Shown: positions 4,748-30,978 of the stretch, piece after piece | Position numbering within the stretch: the first letter of the stretch is position 1 | Layout: every line of letters starts with the position of its first letter | DNA from: Candidatus Vogelbacteria bacterium | GTDB taxonomy: Bacteria; Patescibacteriota; Minisyncoccia; Phycocordibacterales; JACRKE01 | Direction of reading: 5' to 3' | Assembly (NCBI GenBank): GCA_016215335.1 | Contig: JACRKE010000025.1 | Location: 1 to 32,362, forward strand | DNA: 32,362 nucleotides | Notes under the pieces: generated by a model | What the model saw: the letters and a program-made list of their open reading frames with translations, nothing else | Database searches by the model: none | Told to the model about the DNA's origin: nothing | Program-made: the position numbers and the translations under genes

Positions 4748-7700
4748 ATGGAAGAAAATGTAAAAAACTTGACTGCCAATGAGCGTGAGTTACGCATTCT
4801 TAAATTCTGGGAAGAGAATAAGATGTTTGAAAAGTCTCTTGAGAAAACAGCTAGCAAAGGTGCCGCCTCCGCCAAAGGCTCCGGCGAGCCAAAGGAGTTC
4901 GTCTTTTACGAAGGTCCGCCGACGGCAAACGGAAAACCTGGCATCCACCATCTCGAAGCACGCGCGTTCAAGGATGTAATTCCGCGCTACAAAACCATGC
5001 AGGGTTTCCATGTGCGAAGAAAAGGCGGATGGGATACTCACGGACTTCCTGTAGAGCTTCAGGTTGAGAAAAAACTCGGTCTCAATTCAAAAAAAGCCAT
5101 TGAAGAGTACGGTATCGCAAAATTTAACAAAGAGTGCAAGGAAAGCGTCTGGCAGTATCTAGAAGATTGGAACAAATTTACGACACGCATCGGCTTTTGG
5201 GTTGATCAGAAAAATCCGTACGTTACTTATGAAAACAACTACATTGAATCAGTTTGGAATATTGTAAAGACTGTAAACGAAAAGAAGTTACTTTTTAAAG
5301 ACTACAAAGTAGTGCCATGGTGTCCGCGTTGTGGCACCGCGCTTTCGTCGCATGAGCTAGCACAGGGATATCAGGATGATAAGGATATTGCGGTGAAGGT
5401 GAAATTCAGGGTGATTGAAGGAAAAGCACGAAGCACTAAATCTGAAGCACGAAACAAGCACGAAGCACTAAATTCAAATATACAAACTGGGAATACGTAC
5501 ATTTTGGCTTGGACGACGACTCCGTGGACGCTACCGGGGAATGTCGCCTTGGCGGTAGGAGAAGAGATTGAATACGTGAAGGTTAGAAGTCAGAATCTGG
5601 AAACTGGAATCTTGAATAATTACATACTTGCAAAAGCAAGACTGGATACGCTTGGCGCGCCTTATGAGATAATTGAAAAACTCAAAGGCAGAGATTTGCT
5701 AGGGCTCGAGTATGAACCGCTTTATCCGTTTACCGAAAATTTGATCGAAGGCAGTGAGAAAGAGAAAATGGTTAATGCTTATAAGATTTATCCCGCGAAA
5801 TTTGTAACCACAGAGGACGGTACAGGCGTAGTGCACACTGCCGTCATGTACGGTCCCGACGACTTTGAACTCGGTAATCTAGTCGGCCTTCCGAAGCACC
5901 ACTTAGTAAAACTGGATGGAACCTTTGTTCATGGCACAGGATTTCTCGAAGGCCGATTTGTAAAAGATGAGGCGGTTGCCGTCGACATAATCAAAGATTT
6001 GGCGCACCGAGGGCTACTCCTCAAGAAAGAAAAGTACGAACACACTTATCCGCACTGCTGGAGATGCACGACACCACTCATCTATTACGCGAGAGACTCA
6101 TGGTATATTCGCATGTCATCCCTTCGCACCGAACTCGTAAAAGAGAATGAAGGAATCAACTGGGAGCCTGATTATATTAAAGAAGGGAGATTTGGTGAGT
6201 GGCTTCGTGAGATTAAGGATTGGGCCATCTCTCGCGAGCGTTACTGGGGAACACCTTTGCCTATTTGGACTACCGAGAGTGGAAAGATAGAAGTCATCGG
6301 AAGTATTGAGGAGATAAAAAAGAAAGTTAAAAAGTCAGGCAACAAATACATTCTGGTCCGTCATGGCGAGTCCGAGGCGAATGTTCTGGATATTTTCAAT
6401 TGCGATCCTACGGCTCCAGTGCATCTCACTGAAAAAGGCAAGACAGAGGTTAAAGATTTGGCTGCCAGATTAAAGAGTTCAAAGATTGATCTGGTGGTTT
6501 CATCTGACTTTGTTCGCGCCAAAGAGACGGCGAAGATTATTTCAGACCATCTAGACATTTCGGGAGAGAATCGACTTACTGAAGCTCGTTTCGGTGAAGT
6601 AAATTTTGGAGAATTCAACTTAAGACCGACTTCGGAATATAGGGGCTTTTTCAAAACGCCGGAGGAGCGGATGACTATAACTCCCGCCGGAGGCGAGTCA
6701 TACATGGATGTGCGCAAACGTGTGATGTCTGCCCTGGAAGACATGGAAACAGCATACAAAGATAAAACTATTTTGATTGTCGGTCACGGCGGTCCACAAT
6801 GGACTCTGGTCAACGGTTGTCATGGCGAGACTGCGAAAGAGATGGCGAAAGAGGCTCAAAATGGCGCGAGTATCAAATTGGGAGAGATATATAATATTGA
6901 CTACTCGCCATTTCCCCACGACGAAGATTTCGTCCTCGACTTGCACAAACCATACATAGACGAGATAGAACTTGTCTCGGATTCCGGCGAGCCGATGAAA
7001 AGAGTGAAGGAAGTAATGGATGTCTGGTTCGACTCGGGGGCCATGCCTTTTGCGCAGGATCACTATCCTTTCGACACCAAAGAACCAATTTATCCTGCGG
7101 ACTTCATCTCTGAAGCCATAGATCAAACTCGCGGTTGGTTCTATACGCTTCATGTAGTCGGTATTCTCATGGGACGTGGCAAGGCGTACAAAAATGTAAT
7201 CTGTCTCGGACACATCTTGGATGCGCAGGGTAAAAAAATGTCGAAGTCGGTCGGGAATGTTGTAGACCCTTGGCTCATGATGGAAAAATACGGCGTCGAT
7301 ACGCTAAGGCTCTGGATGTATTCAGTTAATCAACCCGGTGAATCGAAGAATTTTGATGAAAAGACAGTAGCTGAGCTTCATAATAAATTTTTCAACCTGC
7401 TTTACAATGTTCTCGCATTCTACGAATTGTATGCAGGGACACCCGGTGTCCGGATGCATTTGGACACCGGGTGTCCAAAATCTTCGAATGTTCTCGATCA
7501 GTGGATAGTGGCTAAGCTGGACGATTTAATTCAATCAATCACAGAAAGCATGGATGCGTACCAAACCTTCGGGCCGGTTCGCATGACAAAAGACTTTATA
7601 GACGATCTTTCAACTTGGTATCTGCGTAGAAGTCGTGACAGATTGAAAGATGGAGACAAGGATGCCAAGGCGACGCTTCACTATGTTTTAATTACGCTTT

Positions 7701-8284
7701 CTAAACTAATTGCTCCATTTGCACCATTTGCCGCCGAAGATATTTGGCTAAGACTTAGAGATGATGGTGATCAAGAAAGTGTGCATTTGGCGGAGTGGCC
7801 AGAATTGGAAACTAGAGACTGGAAAATGGAAACTGGAATAATTCAGGACATGAAGCTAGTGCGGGAGATCGTTACAATGGGCCTCGAAGCTCGCGCTAGG
7901 GCAAATATAAAAGTCCGCCAGCCCTTGTCTTGTATCAAGCTACTAGCTACTAACTACCAACTACCAGCTACTTTTTTGGAACTCATAAAAGAAGAGCTTA
8001 ATGTTAAAGAAGTTGTATTTGTTGATTCATTGGAAACTCCAGTCGAGCTTGATCTGAAAATTACTCCCGATCTGGATGCCGAAGGCAATGTACGTGAGCT
8101 TATGCGTTCAATTCAGGAAATTCGTAAAACGAGTGGTCTACAACCGCAGCAAGAAATTAATCTTACTCTACCCGAGCGATACAAGACCAATGTACTCAAG
8201 TTTGAGCAGCTACTTCAGAAAACTCTAAAAACAAAGCAGATTAAATTTAGAGACCAGTCAGATCCTACAATCGAGGTGGTTTAG
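4748..8284 (+). CDS. ileS: Isoleucyl-tRNA synthetase with inserted histidine-phosphatase domain
   Basis: This 1178-residue class I synthetase charges tRNA-Ile. It has the archaeal/eukaryotic-type signature: GKPGIHH (62-68) in place of bacterial HIGH, WTTTPWTLPGN in the CP1 editing region, Cys pairs in WCPRCG and HCWRC, and KMSKS at 830-834, followed by the helical anticodon-binding domain. Unusually, residues about 531-725 form a histidine phosphatase domain (LVRHGESEAN with His539, SSDFVRAKETA with Arg590, VGHGG with His680), inserted between PLPIWTTESGK and LDLHKPYIDE of the synthetase core. The usual catalytic residues are all kept, so the domain may be active. The gene also holds several short in-frame modules (near 4863, 5424, 5585, 7437, 7805 and 7938) that lengthen normally tight loops. 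recO starts two bases after its stop. Confidence 0.96.
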   Translation: MEENVKNLTANERELRILKFWEENKMFEKSLEKTASKGAASAKGSGEPKEFVFYEGPPTANGKPGIHHLEARAFKDVIPRYKTMQGFHVRRKGGWDTHGLPVELQVEKKLGLNSKKAIEEYGIAKFNKECKESVWQYLEDWNKFTTRIGFWVDQKNPYVTYENNYIESVWNIVKTVNEKKLLFKDYKVVPWCPRCGTALSSHELAQGYQDDKDIAVKVKFRVIEGKARSTKSEARNKHEALNSNIQTGNTYILAWTTTPWTLPGNVALAVGEEIEYVKVRSQNLETGILNNYILAKARLDTLGAPYEIIEKLKGRDLLGLEYEPLYPFTENLIEGSEKEKMVNAYKIYPAKFVTTEDGTGVVHTAVMYGPDDFELGNLVGLPKHHLVKLDGTFVHGTGFLEGRFVKDEAVAVDIIKDLAHRGLLLKKEKYEHTYPHCWRCTTPLIYYARDSWYIRMSSLRTELVKENEGINWEPDYIKEGRFGEWLREIKDWAISRERYWGTPLPIWTTESGKIEVIGSIEEIKKKVKKSGNKYILVRHGESEANVLDIFNCDPTAPVHLTEKGKTEVKDLAARLKSSKIDLVVSSDFVRAKETAKIISDHLDISGENRLTEARFGEVNFGEFNLRPTSEYRGFFKTPEERMTITPAGGESYMDVRKRVMSALEDMETAYKDKTILIVGHGGPQWTLVNGCHGETAKEMAKEAQNGASIKLGEIYNIDYSPFPHDEDFVLDLHKPYIDEIELVSDSGEPMKRVKEVMDVWFDSGAMPFAQDHYPFDTKEPIYPADFISEAIDQTRGWFYTLHVVGILMGRGKAYKNVICLGHILDAQGKKMSKSVGNVVDPWLMMEKYGVDTLRLWMYSVNQPGESKNFDEKTVAELHNKFFNLLYNVLAFYELYAGTPGVRMHLDTGCPKSSNVLDQWIVAKLDDLIQSITESMDAYQTFGPVRMTKDFIDDLSTWYLRRSRDRLKDGDKDAKATLHYVLITLSKLIAPFAPFAAEDIWLRLRDDGDQESVHLAEWPELETRDWKMETGIIQDMKLVREIVTMGLEARARANIKVRQPLSCIKLLATNYQLPATFLELIKEELNVKEVVFVDSLETPVELDLKITPDLDAEGNVRELMRSIQEIRKTSGLQPQQEINLTLPERYKTNVLKFEQLLQKTLKTKQIKFRDQSDPTIEVV
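4863..4896 (+). repeat. 34-base in-frame module, copy in ileS
   Basis: This is the partner of 2938-2971 (29 of 34 bases identical by eye). It encodes ASAKGSGEPKE between the N-terminal helix and the FVFYEGPP strand, where related synthetases normally have only a short loop. Confidence 0.65.
5424..5473 (+). repeat. Direct repeat of 18 bases inside ileS
   Basis: AAGCACGAAGCACTAAAT occurs exactly at 5424-5441 and 5456-5473, with a related GAAGCACGAA between them. It encodes a low-complexity stretch (KARSTKSEARNKHEALN) just before the conserved TYILAWTTTPW strand. Confidence 0.75.
5585..5622 (+). repeat. Low-complexity module in ileS, first GGAAACTGG copy
   Basis: TGGAAACTGGAAT at 5598-5610 recurs exactly at 7827-7839 in the same gene. 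It encodes an extra NLETGIL-like loop in the editing region. Confidence 0.55.
7437..7476. repeat. In-frame 15-bp inverted repeat inside ileS
   Basis: GGACACCCGGTGTCC (7437-7451) and GGACACCGGGTGTCC (7462-7476) pair perfectly across a 10-base spacer. The element encodes GTPGVRMHLDTGCP between FYELYA and the conserved NVLDQWIV helix, where other synthetases need few residues. Each arm is itself nearly palindromic. Confidence 0.75.
7805..7844 (+). repeat. Low-complexity module in ileS, second GGAAACTGG copy
   Basis: A run built from TGGAAACT/GACTGGAAA units encodes LETRDWKMETGI shortly before the MKLVREIVTMG helix. It shares an exact 13-mer with 5598-5610. Confidence 0.55.
7938..7972 (+). repeat. 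CTA-CCA low-complexity module in ileS
   Basis: Tandem units of the form CTACTAG/CTAACTACCA encode LLATNYQLPATF in the C-terminal part of the synthetase. The sequence is almost free of G and is unlike its surroundings. Confidence 0.55.
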
Positions 8285-27303: not shown

Positions 27304-30300
27304 ATGAATATATTTAAGAAAACGAAAGTTACAAAAGTCGTCGCGGTTTTCGCAGGTTTGATGACAGCCGTAATGATGCTTGGTGGAGTGGCAGTATTGC
27401 CGGCTTCAGCAGCAACAGCAGCTGAACTTCAAGCACAGATTCAGGCGCTTTTGGCACAGGTAGCGGCATTACAGGCACAGACAGGTGGTACGACAGTATC
27501 ATCGTCATGTCCCGTAGCCTACACATTCCCAGCAATGAACTTGAAGCTTGGAAGTAAGGGCGAGGCGGTCTGGAATGCACAGAAGGTTATGAACTTAAAT
27601 GCGGGAACGATGGTAGCACTTTCAGGTGCTGGATCTTCAGGCATGGAGACAATGACCTTTGGTCCTCTCACAAAGAGAGCGGTTACAAAGTTCCAGGAAT
27701 TTTACGCAGCTGACATCTTGGCCCCGCTCGGTCTGAGCGCTGGAACAGGAACAGTTGGTCCTTCAACACGTGCAAAGATGCAGTCAGTACTTGATGCGGC
27801 AGTTGCAGCATGTACAGCGCCTTCAACCGGCGGTACTACAACGGGTGGAACAAGCACCGGCGGTACTACAACGGGTGGAACAACAACAGGTGGAACCACA
27901 GCAGTGGCAGGTTCACTTGCGGTCGCCCCGGGCACCCAGCCGGCCAACTCGCTTGCACCACAGAGTGCTGCTCGACTCCCATACACTCGAGTTACATTCA
28001 CAGCCGGAGCATCCGATGTGGTTGTGAACGGTATTACAGTTGAGAGAGCGGGTCTTGCACAGGATGTTGTTTTCGCGGGAGTTTCACTCCTTGACGAGAA
28101 TGGTATCCAGCTCGGTATCGCAAAGACACTAAACTCAAACCACCAGGCAATTGTAGGTGAGCCGTTTACAGTAAAGGCTGGAACATCTCGCACAATGACA
28201 ATTGCAGGTAACATGGCAGCTTCACTTGCAAACTACGCAGGTCAGGTTGCAACATTGAAAGTCGTAGGAGTCAATACAACAGCGGCAGTTTCAGGCAATC
28301 TTCCAATAGAAGGTGCACAGCACACAGTGAACGCAACCCTTTCTATGGGTAGTGCAACATTGGTCGTGTCCTCATATGATCCAAACGGTGCTCAGACAAA
28401 GAACGTTGGTGATGTGAACATGAAATTTGCGGGCCTTAAAATGACAACAGGTTCGACAGAGAAAGTTTACTTACACTCAATTCGATGGAACCAATCAGGT
28501 TCAGCGGCATCGGGTGACCTCGCGAACTTAAAGACATACATTGACGGAACAGCATACGACACGGTCGTATCGGCTGACGGCAAGTACTTCACTTCCACAT
28601 TCGGTGCAAGTGGTATCTTGGTTGACAAAGGTTTCTCAAAGGACATCTGGATTCAGGGTGATATCGTAGGGTCAGGTGTCGCTGGAAGGACAGTGCAGTT
28701 TGATCTCTATAAGACAACCGACATTTACATGTCAGGTGAGACTTATGGATACGGTATTACACCAACACCGGGTGGTAATACTGCAGCAGCAGCGACAACC
28801 GGTTCACAGTTCGTTACAAGCAATGGTACAACTTCAGGAACAGCCGGTACCCCTTGGTACAGTGGTTCAACATTCACTGTAAACGCGGGAACAGTATCGA
28901 GTGTCCAGAAGGCAAATTCAGTAGCTGCGGCGAACGTTGCGGTGGGACTCGCGAATACAATTCTTGGTGGCTACGAAGTCAACTTGAAGGGTGAGCCAAT
29001 TTCAGTTCAGCAGTCAATCTTCCGTTACTCAACAACAACAGCAGCAGCCTTCCTCATTACCAACATAACAATCACTGACCAGAATGGTAAGGTTGTTGCC
29101 GGTCCGGTTGATGCGATAGTTGACACGAGCAGTCCATCTAAGGGCAAGGCTACATTCACGGACACCATAACCTATCCTACGGGTGTTTCTGTTTACACAA
29201 TCAAGGGCAAGGTTCCAACAACTGCCGGAAACAATGCGACAATTACGTTTGAGACCACCCCTTCAACAGATTGGTCAACAATCACAGGTCAGACAACCGG
29301 TAATTCTATAAGCTTGTCTTCGCTTTCAGGTTTGGTTCAAACGAACGCCCAGACAGTGAAAGCAGCATCAATCGCAGTTACAGTCTCCGGTACACCGGCG
29401 GCACAGACGCTCACAACCGGTTCCAACAAGCACTTGGCAACAATCAACTTAAGCACTACTGCTTCTGGTGAAGGAGTCAAATTCTCTTCGATTGTTCTAG
29501 GTCTTATTGGTAACTTGACGGCAACCACAACACAGCTCACAACTTGTGGACTGTATGATGGGGATGCGACTACTCCGCTAAACGGCACATCGGTAACTCC
29601 GGCCGCAACGGACACCACAATGACATTTTCGTTCGACAACGCTTTGATTGTTCCTAAGGGAATAACAAAGAATTTGAAGGCGAGATGCAATGTTTCAAGT
29701 GTGGGTACAAGCGCTAAATTCGTTCAGATTGGTGTTGCGAGTGGCACAGGTTCAAGTGTAATTTCGTCAGCAACAGGAGTTGACTCTTCTGCATCCGCGA
29801 CAGTTACATCAACATTGAACAACGGCCAGGCAATGACATTCGGAACAGCTTCTTACACTGTTGTGCTTGATTCCAACATGGCTTACAAGTCAGTTGAGGC
29901 GGGTACTACAGGTGTTACGGCAGCGGCGCTCAAATTCACAGCATCCAATGACGCTATTGACGTTGATAAGCTTGCTTTGATCCTTACCAATTCTGCCTCA
30001 AGTTCGCAGTCAGACCTCACTAAGGTAACTGTCTACGATGCAGCGGGTCAGAAACTAGCAGAGGATATATTCACTTCGGACGCTTACACTAAACAGCTTA
30101 CATTGTCTCCAAGACTTCATGTAAACAAGGACGCGTCAGCTACACTTACTGTGAAGGTTGATACAGCAACCATTGATTCAAACACAGCCTCAAGTCGTGA
30201 AGGTGCATTTATCGCAGTCAACTACGATAACGGTGCTACAAACGCAACAACGGCTTATGGATCTGATGGTGCGGTAGCGACGGACAGTTCAACTGCAGAC

Positions 30301-30978
30301 ACAGCGTCTTCAGGCTTCAGAATGTTCAAGGCGGTTCCGACAGTTGTGGTAAAAACAACTACAACCACATGTCCCGACTTGGCAACCAACTATCGATCAG
30401 GTGTGGCAAGTGCTGATAAAGTACTGTACTGCTTCACAGTATCAGGTGGTGGTGCGACAACGAACGGAGTTTCACTTCGCGAGTTTGTGATGAACATTGC
30501 AACTTCAACCAACTCATTGGCTGCAGGAAGTACAACTGTTACAAGTTTGTACGCGAAGGCCTATGACGAGAATGGTTCAGTGATAACAAATGCAAACTGG
30601 ACGAGTGACAGGTTTGTGACAGCCATATCAGCCTTGTTGGCTTCAGGCGACAACGTTATGGCCGCCGCAACTACTCCTCTGATGATTCCGGCAGGAAAGA
30701 CATACACAGTAAAGGTGTACGGAACTGTCACACATGTTGATGGTACCGATACTGGTGTAGCCGGATCAGTGATTGCGAAGATGAAACAGGATTCATCCTG
30801 GATGTCATCGGCAACCAAGATGATTGCATACACAACAGCTATGTCTAACTTCATCTGGTCACCGAACTCAACCACAACAACACCGGGCAATGGTCACGTT
30901 GATTGGGGTAACGGTTACGGTATTACAGGCGCATGGGGAACATACGCACCTGAATACGCAATCGGAGTTGTTCAGTAA
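27304..30978 (+). CDS. Large secreted S-layer-like protein with peptidoglycan-binding domain
   Basis: The 1224-residue product has a Sec signal peptide (cleavage likely after ASA, near residue 37), a short Ala/Gln coiled coil (AAELQAQIQALLAQVAALQ), and a PG_binding_1 domain at about 80-165 (LKLGSKGEAVWNAQKVMN, TFGPLTKRAVTKFQEFYA, TVGPSTRAKM). A Gly/Thr repeat linker (GGTTTGGTST) leads to a long run of beta-sandwich domains rich in Thr, Ser and Ala. This is the typical layout of the main surface proteins of Parcubacteria, proposed S-layer or cell-wall-bound proteins. Codon use is strongly biased (ACA, GCA, TCA, GGT), unlike its neighbours, as expected for very high expression. A strong terminator follows. 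Confidence 0.85.
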   Translation: MNIFKKTKVTKVVAVFAGLMTAVMMLGGVAVLPASAATAAELQAQIQALLAQVAALQAQTGGTTVSSSCPVAYTFPAMNLKLGSKGEAVWNAQKVMNLNAGTMVALSGAGSSGMETMTFGPLTKRAVTKFQEFYAADILAPLGLSAGTGTVGPSTRAKMQSVLDAAVAACTAPSTGGTTTGGTSTGGTTTGGTTTGGTTAVAGSLAVAPGTQPANSLAPQSAARLPYTRVTFTAGASDVVVNGITVERAGLAQDVVFAGVSLLDENGIQLGIAKTLNSNHQAIVGEPFTVKAGTSRTMTIAGNMAASLANYAGQVATLKVVGVNTTAAVSGNLPIEGAQHTVNATLSMGSATLVVSSYDPNGAQTKNVGDVNMKFAGLKMTTGSTEKVYLHSIRWNQSGSAASGDLANLKTYIDGTAYDTVVSADGKYFTSTFGASGILVDKGFSKDIWIQGDIVGSGVAGRTVQFDLYKTTDIYMSGETYGYGITPTPGGNTAAAATTGSQFVTSNGTTSGTAGTPWYSGSTFTVNAGTVSSVQKANSVAAANVAVGLANTILGGYEVNLKGEPISVQQSIFRYSTTTAAAFLITNITITDQNGKVVAGPVDAIVDTSSPSKGKATFTDTITYPTGVSVYTIKGKVPTTAGNNATITFETTPSTDWSTITGQTTGNSISLSSLSGLVQTNAQTVKAASIAVTVSGTPAAQTLTTGSNKHLATINLSTTASGEGVKFSSIVLGLIGNLTATTTQLTTCGLYDGDATTPLNGTSVTPAATDTTMTFSFDNALIVPKGITKNLKARCNVSSVGTSAKFVQIGVASGTGSSVISSATGVDSSASATVTSTLNNGQAMTFGTASYTVVLDSNMAYKSVEAGTTGVTAAALKFTASNDAIDVDKLALILTNSASSSQSDLTKVTVYDAAGQKLAEDIFTSDAYTKQLTLSPRLHVNKDASATLTVKVDTATIDSNTASSREGAFIAVNYDNGATNATTAYGSDGAVATDSSTADTASSGFRMFKAVPTVVVKTTTTTCPDLATNYRSGVASADKVLYCFTVSGGGATTNGVSLREFVMNIATSTNSLAAGSTTVTSLYAKAYDENGSVITNANWTSDRFVTAISALLASGDNVMAAATTPLMIPAGKTYTVKVYGTVTHVDGTDTGVAGSVIAKMKQDSSWMSSATKMIAYTTAMSNFIWSPNSTTTTPGNGHVDWGNGYGITGAWGTYAPEYAIGVVQ
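27825..27899 (+). repeat. Gly/Thr linker tandem repeat
   Basis: Near-identical units CCGGCGGTACTACAACGGGT and GGTGGAACAACAACA repeat in tandem and encode the GGTTTGGTST linker between the peptidoglycan-binding domain and the beta domains. Such repeats can change length by slippage. Confidence 0.8.

Follow-up and report, generated by a model that had tools for sequence, protein, structure and literature searches.

A histidine phosphatase domain inserted into the type-2 isoleucyl-tRNA synthetase of Patescibacteria

The stretch of DNA analysed here (32,362 nucleotides, hereafter referred to as the window) derives from a Candidatus Vogelbacteria bacterium whose genome sequence is 836 kb in size and 91% complete. 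It contains ileS, an open frame on the forward strand (4748-8284, no internal stops) that encodes a 1178-residue isoleucyl-tRNA synthetase (IleRS). The product scores 866.7 bits with the curated equivalog model TIGR00392 (E 1.8e-260), above the cut-off of 621.4. Because this is the sole IleRS of the source genome, the enzyme is expected to charge tRNA(Ile). In its body, CP1 editing domain, KMSKS motif, and anticodon-binding and C-terminal domains, the protein resembles type-2 enzymes such as IleRS2 of P. megaterium (8c8u/8c8v/8c8w) and the IleRS of T. thermophilus (1ile). Both class I signatures are present, although HIGH has its two middle and last residues exchanged to read GIHH (the swapped form). 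This variant is functional in IleRS2 and confers mupirocin hyper-resistance in other IleRS2 enzymes (PMC10485003). GIHH was found in 46 of the 160 insert-bearing IleRS frames and is therefore independent of the insert. The coordinates of all features are listed in Table 1.

Table 1. Features of the ileS gene and its predicted product, with their positions in the window
Feature	Residues	Position	Strand	Basis
ileS, type-2 IleRS with embedded histidine phosphatase, 1178 aa	1-1178	4748-8281, stop codon 8282-8284	+	TIGR00392, AlphaFold
Synthetase part 1: N-terminal half of catalytic fold, CP1 editing domain, start of CP2	1-527	4748-6328	+	PF00133 (17-530); alignment to 8c8w and 1ile
HIGH signature, swapped form GIHH	65-68	4940-4951	+	
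Inserted histidine phosphatase (HP) domain	~530-722	6335-6913	+	PF00300; model; closest fold PhoE 1h2e
RHGE motif, Arg538 and phosphate-accepting His539		6359-6370	+	R and H in 160/160 IleRS inserts
S586..R590 of SSDFVRAKET, phosphate-binding arginine	586-590	6503-6517	+	S and R in 160/160
Glu617, expected general acid/base	617	6596-6598	+	E 158, D 2 of 160
E650 (GGE) and R658, conserved in HP domain	650-658	6695-6721	+	E in 158/160, R in 159/160
His680, second catalytic His (IVGHGG)	680	6785-6787	+	160/160
Synthetase part 2: remainder of CP2, second half of catalytic fold, KMSKS, anticodon-binding and C-terminal domains	731-1178	6938-8281	+	PF09334, PF08264, PF19302; alignment to 1ile
KMSKS	830-834	7235-7249	+	

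The additional domain is a histidine phosphatase (HP). PF00300 (branch 1) matches residues 535-710 with an E value of 1.7e-32 and 113.1 bits, compared with a gathering cut-off of 21.7. The original prediction, that this IleRS carries a complete HP, was borne out, with His539 in RHGE, Arg590 in SSDFVRAKET and His680 in IVGHGG at the positions claimed; the catalytic set also includes Glu617, which had not been named. The domain does lie between the flanks that had been proposed, but its extent differs slightly from the predicted residues 531-725 (6338-6922). It is flanked by PLPIWTTESGK..GSIEEIKK on one side and DLHKPYIDE on the other, and the IleRS body picks up again at D731. In alignments, the insert stands in for the loop at ~481-487 of T. 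thermophilus IleRS and that at 477-480 of P. megaterium IleRS2. Because the published catalytic core of the latter consists of residues 40-168 and 513-632 (PMC10485003), the HP domain belongs to the connective peptide CP2, outside the nucleotide-binding fold. CP2 lies between the two halves of the core, and the HP is located at the tip of its knuckle. The earlier placement of the domain in the catalytic core thus requires correction. In relatives, cysteines often flank the insert on both sides (WKCxxC ... CxCGG), as they do in 1ile, and presumably bind zinc. The P. megaterium and T. thermophilus enzymes have no insert at the CP2 tip; in the window protein the phosphatase occupies this position and the cysteines of the knuckle are gone.

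Structure prediction gave high confidence to both the synthetase and the phosphatase parts. The AlphaFold model of the whole protein, for which 52 relatives were used, has a mean pLDDT of 89.5 (mostly 90-96 in the insert) and a pTM of 0.83. When this model was compared with the PDB, IleRS structures aligned end to end (8c8v, E 3e-87), and the alignment to 1ile spans the insert with a TM score of 0.85, normalised to 1ile as the target. The model therefore agrees with the proposal that the domain protrudes from the body and leaves the fold of the synthetase undisturbed, and the body is predicted to be intact. Modelled alone, the HP domain reached a pLDDT of 95.6 and a pTM of 0.91, and a structure search found it closest to PhoE of Bacillus stearothermophilus (1h2e, TM 0.79/0.77). 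Thus, the inactive fold lacking a pocket that had been considered at the outset did not appear in the prediction, in which the phosphatase fold is intact.

Several other features were observed in the window and the source genome. Residues 222-251 of the IleRS (RSTKSEARNKHEALNSNIQTG, window 5411-5500) are a translated interspersed repeat, of which eight other partial copies are present in the genome; the pLDDT falls below 50 at residues 228-246 within it. Stretches resembling this translated repeat interrupt the CP2 knuckle in three other sequences (L039, L040 and L042). An open frame of 1224 aa at 27304-30978 of the window has no Pfam match. The second PF00300 gene of the source genome (L002:108-395, minus strand, contig 43) encodes only 95 aa and has no second His; its neighbour resembles a 5'-deoxyribonucleotidase by eye.

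Judged by its profile, catalytic set and predicted fold, the insert is a member of branch 1 of the HP superfamily. The nearest chains by profile are PhoE, PspA and CobC, which share with it the fold and the full catalytic set (1h2e, 4ij5 and 6e4b, respectively). However, these enzymes are free-standing, whereas the insert of the window is embedded and remains below every curated equivalog cut-off: 93.9 of 162.9 bits for the alpha-ribazole phosphatase CobC (TIGR03162), 73.8 of 225 for the 2,3-bisphosphoglycerate-dependent phosphoglycerate mutase dPGM (NF038349), 58.5 of 350 for the phosphoserine phosphatase PspA (NF045917) and 38 of 74.5 for the phosphohistidine phosphatase SixA (TIGR00249). 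Among known composite proteins, the IleRS described by NF040702 (ileS_w_GNAT) also carries an added small enzyme domain, but that domain is an acetyltransferase, and the window protein scores 312 of 1999 bits, far below the cut-off. Mycobacterial MutT1 (Nudix plus RHG domain) and the RNase H/acid phosphatase fusions (PRK07238) likewise join a branch-1 HP to a nucleotide or nucleic-acid enzyme; in these proteins the HP is C-terminal, whereas here it is inserted. We found no paper in the open-access literature that couples IleRS with a histidine phosphatase, and nothing relevant there on IleRS with a phosphoglycerate mutase domain or on CPR fusions or insertions, although domain-architecture databases may well list the combination.

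The conservation of the insert is concentrated in its active site. Among the 160 HP domains of IleRS-type frames, which include near-duplicates and a few tandem copies and hence do not represent 160 independent cases, R538, H539, G564, S586, R590 and H680 are invariant. The mean pairwise identity is 0.37 for the insert versus 0.49-0.57 for the catalytic and editing parts of the synthetase. Six further inserts are shortened. None of them has lost RHGE, the second Arg or His, or the Glu, although five (L041, L171, L179, L183 and L187) lack the greater part of the HP cap, which extends from E617 to E650. This pattern indicates that the HP active site is under selection. It also bears on the idea that the domain has a structural or accessory role without enzyme activity. 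A precedent exists in MutT1, the C-terminal RHG domain of which has no detectable phosphatase activity of its own (PMC11784022), and one copy of the HP found in valyl-tRNA synthetase (ValRS), described below, has lost the second His (L094). In the IleRS inserts, however, the catalytic residues remain invariant while the remainder varies, the shortened copies retain exactly the catalytic set, and a free-standing gene form exists. We therefore regard an inactive domain as very improbable.

The Paceibacteria, within the Patescibacteria, form a large group of very small bacteria, most of which have not been cultured. In a survey of IleRS sequences of the kind proposed with the original prediction, an HP was found at the same site in 80 of the 86 IleRS read from the same order, a set that was not randomly drawn, because the six insert-free sequences were deliberately sought. 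In the class as a whole, approximately 156 of the 238 genomes sampled contain the insert (152 matching a flank-insert-flank profile at E below 1e-62, plus four recognised on closer reading; hand-counted from the table). Outside the class, the insert occupies the usual site in 19 of the 223 genomes from the rest of the phylum and another site in one more (G417). Scanning of named genomes yielded insert-bearing records of Nomura-, Zambryski-, Taylor-, Lloyd-, Adler-, Yonath-, Colwell-, Giovannoni-, Yanofsky- and Buchananbacteria and of other Parcubacteria/Paceibacterota. These matches were obtained with an alignment of the closer set (A3), since alignment A2 was too divergent for scanning, and the window's own insert as a query gave no match in the named genomes. 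The same scan also matched stand-alone phosphatases of Clostridia; in four clostridial sequences (L186, L188, L189 and L191), two such genes are adjacent to each other.

In the IleRS tree, insert-free sequences are scattered among insert-bearing ones, although some of the rows labelled 'no_insert' have a shortened insert or are cut at a contig end, so that the count of changes is too high. Two of the 60 relatives compared at the genome level (G029 and G055) have neither the insert nor any HP, and the HP function is therefore dispensable there. The insert is a trait of the whole lineage, beyond the source genome. The possibility of an assembly or sequencing chimera at the junctions, raised with the original prediction, has a negligible probability and was rejected, because the insert recurs at the same junctions in many genomes from many independent projects; in the window, moreover, it is part of a single open frame without stops.

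As the HP superfamily includes phosphoglycerate mutases, and iPGM is absent from 46 of the 60 relatives, the insert might be thought to supply the glycolytic mutase. The source genome indeed has no iPGM, but it also has no detectable enolase. Enolase is missing from 32 of the 60 relatives, nearly all of which keep the insert, while in other relatives iPGM and the insert occur together. Given the missing enolase and the low dPGM score, a glycolytic role was rejected for most carriers, and we consider it extremely unlikely overall.

In some genomes, the HP is a separate gene. Seven genomes of the class (L201, L203, L204, L205, L207, L212 and L215) have an insert-free ileS preceded by a free HP gene of the same subfamily, which in turn follows argS, with all three genes on one strand. 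The HP stop codon overlaps the start of ileS or is separated from it by no more than about 20 nt. One additional locus (L211) contains argS-HP only. The identities of ArgRS, HP and IleRS were confirmed by Pfam in those argS-HP-ileS loci that were scanned. Since argS is immediately upstream of ileS in 52 insert-bearing loci as well, the free HP gene adjoins the very gene that elsewhere contains the HP. In the HP tree, the operon HPs cluster with the IleRS inserts (99/90; the 53 members comprise 39 IleRS, 8 operon and 6 other HPs) and are distinct from the majority of the other free-standing HPs in the phylum. The operon HPs form one related group. Since the argS-ileS order is common in these bacteria, the adjacency of HP and ileS may be traceable to a single ancestral event whose outcome was retained by a few families. 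With this reservation, the argS-HP-ileS arrangement is the best evidence, although indirect, for a functional connection between HP and IleRS.

HPs were also found at the equivalent CP2 site of ValRS in other Patescibacteria (L093, L094, L095, L097, L098, L099, L209, L230 and L231). They belong to other HP lineages and occupy three or more distinct positions in the HP tree, indicating that ValRS captured an HP more than once. These parallel captures lend further indirect support to a function linked to IleRS. One of these enzymes (L097) has two HPs in tandem, and IleRS of family f228 (L100, L101 and L111; 1467-1551 aa) contain two tandem HP domains of different lineage. More complex forms are an IleRS with a GNAT domain at residues 666-764, in which the HP follows KMSKS and precedes the anticodon domain instead of occupying CP2 (L096), and a ValRS with inserted HAD, serine hydrolase and HP domains (L099). 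HPs are also attached to proteins other than synthetases, being C-terminal to a D-2-hydroxyacid dehydrogenase (L102:1988-3643) and to a VTT-domain membrane protein (L103:1323-2660).

Such diversity is relevant to the view that the HP is a passenger, that is, a general metabolic phosphatase (with a substrate such as phosphoserine, a vitamin precursor or a sugar phosphate) lodged at the CP2 tip because this site can accommodate insertions and ensures steady expression in a reduced genome. HP enzymes dephosphorylate a broad range of small molecules, and PhoE, PspA and CobC are the closest relatives of the insert by fold and profile. Furthermore, the IleRS-borne HP is the only PF00300 protein of the genome in 18 of the 60 relatives, unrelated enzymes (GNAT, HAD and serine hydrolase) also reside inside single synthetases, and the HP is joined to a dehydrogenase and a membrane protein as well. 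However, the free form of the HP adjoins ileS, and IleRS and ValRS are repeated hosts, whereas no HP was seen in any other synthetase of the 60 relatives. We consider the passenger explanation unlikely, although it is the strongest of the alternatives.

Another explanation is that the HP acts on a macromolecule, dephosphorylating the synthetase itself, tRNA (e.g. a 3' phosphate) or another translation factor, for example to reverse the action of a kinase toxin. SixA is a small protein-phosphohistidine phosphatase whose architecture has no cap over the active site, and some inserts without this cap keep the catalytic residues and have a SixA-like shape. The HP domain is also held beside a tRNA-binding enzyme. 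Because the cap is kept in most inserts and the SixA equivalog score is not reached, a macromolecular target seems improbable.

The poor fit to a mutase and to every equivalog model, together with the 18 genomes in which the IleRS-borne HP is the only one (two insert-free relatives have none), leads us to favour the view that the HP is an active phosphomonoesterase working on behalf of the synthetase. The phosphatase job is probably connected with tRNA charging, because the HP is located either inside IleRS or, in relatives, in a separate gene directly before ileS. We therefore propose, with a probability of roughly one half, that the protein is bifunctional, consisting of a type-2 IleRS and a catalytically competent HP on the CP2 tip that would serve the synthetase by clearing a small phosphorylated compound. 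By analogy with the family, the phosphate, bound by R538, R590 and H680, would pass to His539 while Glu617 donates a proton to the leaving group, and the phosphohistidine would then be hydrolysed. The beneficiary would be the synthetase and not some unrelated pathway, as the HP would remove, on the spot, a compound that is formed at the IleRS active site or blocks it. A nucleotide, a tRNA end and a misacylation by-product, which had been suggested with the original prediction, are candidate substrates. Our first guess for the substrate, somewhat less than an even bet if the bifunctional reading is right, is a nucleotide-type phosphate such as AMP, a diadenosine polyphosphate product or a phosphorylated aminoacyl-nucleotide-like inhibitor. 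Several points speak against the bifunctional reading: hydrolysis of AMP would be wasteful, a fused RHG domain can be inactive, as in MutT1, the function is dispensable in the two relatives that lack both insert and HP, and the proximity of HP and ileS may have arisen only once. Soluble pyrophosphatase (PF00719, the only such family covered) is present in 33 of the 60 relatives and not in the source genome, and the insert occurs both with and without it. More tentatively, the charging of Ile, and in some lineages of Val, may need or benefit from a dedicated in-place phosphatase step in Patescibacteria, provided either inside the synthetase or by a coupled upstream gene.

Few enzymes have been studied as thoroughly as the aminoacyl-tRNA synthetases, whose known extra activities are mostly those of editing hydrolases that remove wrong amino acids. 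That an HP with an invariant active site is conserved in the IleRS of a very large uncultured lineage, and is encoded next to ileS as a coupled gene in other members, suggests that Ile charging involves a chemical step or hazard not recognised so far. If this is true, aminoacyl-tRNA synthetases would perform a phosphatase-based clearance or quality control that is not known elsewhere. As a single protein that can be expressed and assayed, the IleRS-HP offers an experimentally accessible route to the biology of Patescibacteria.
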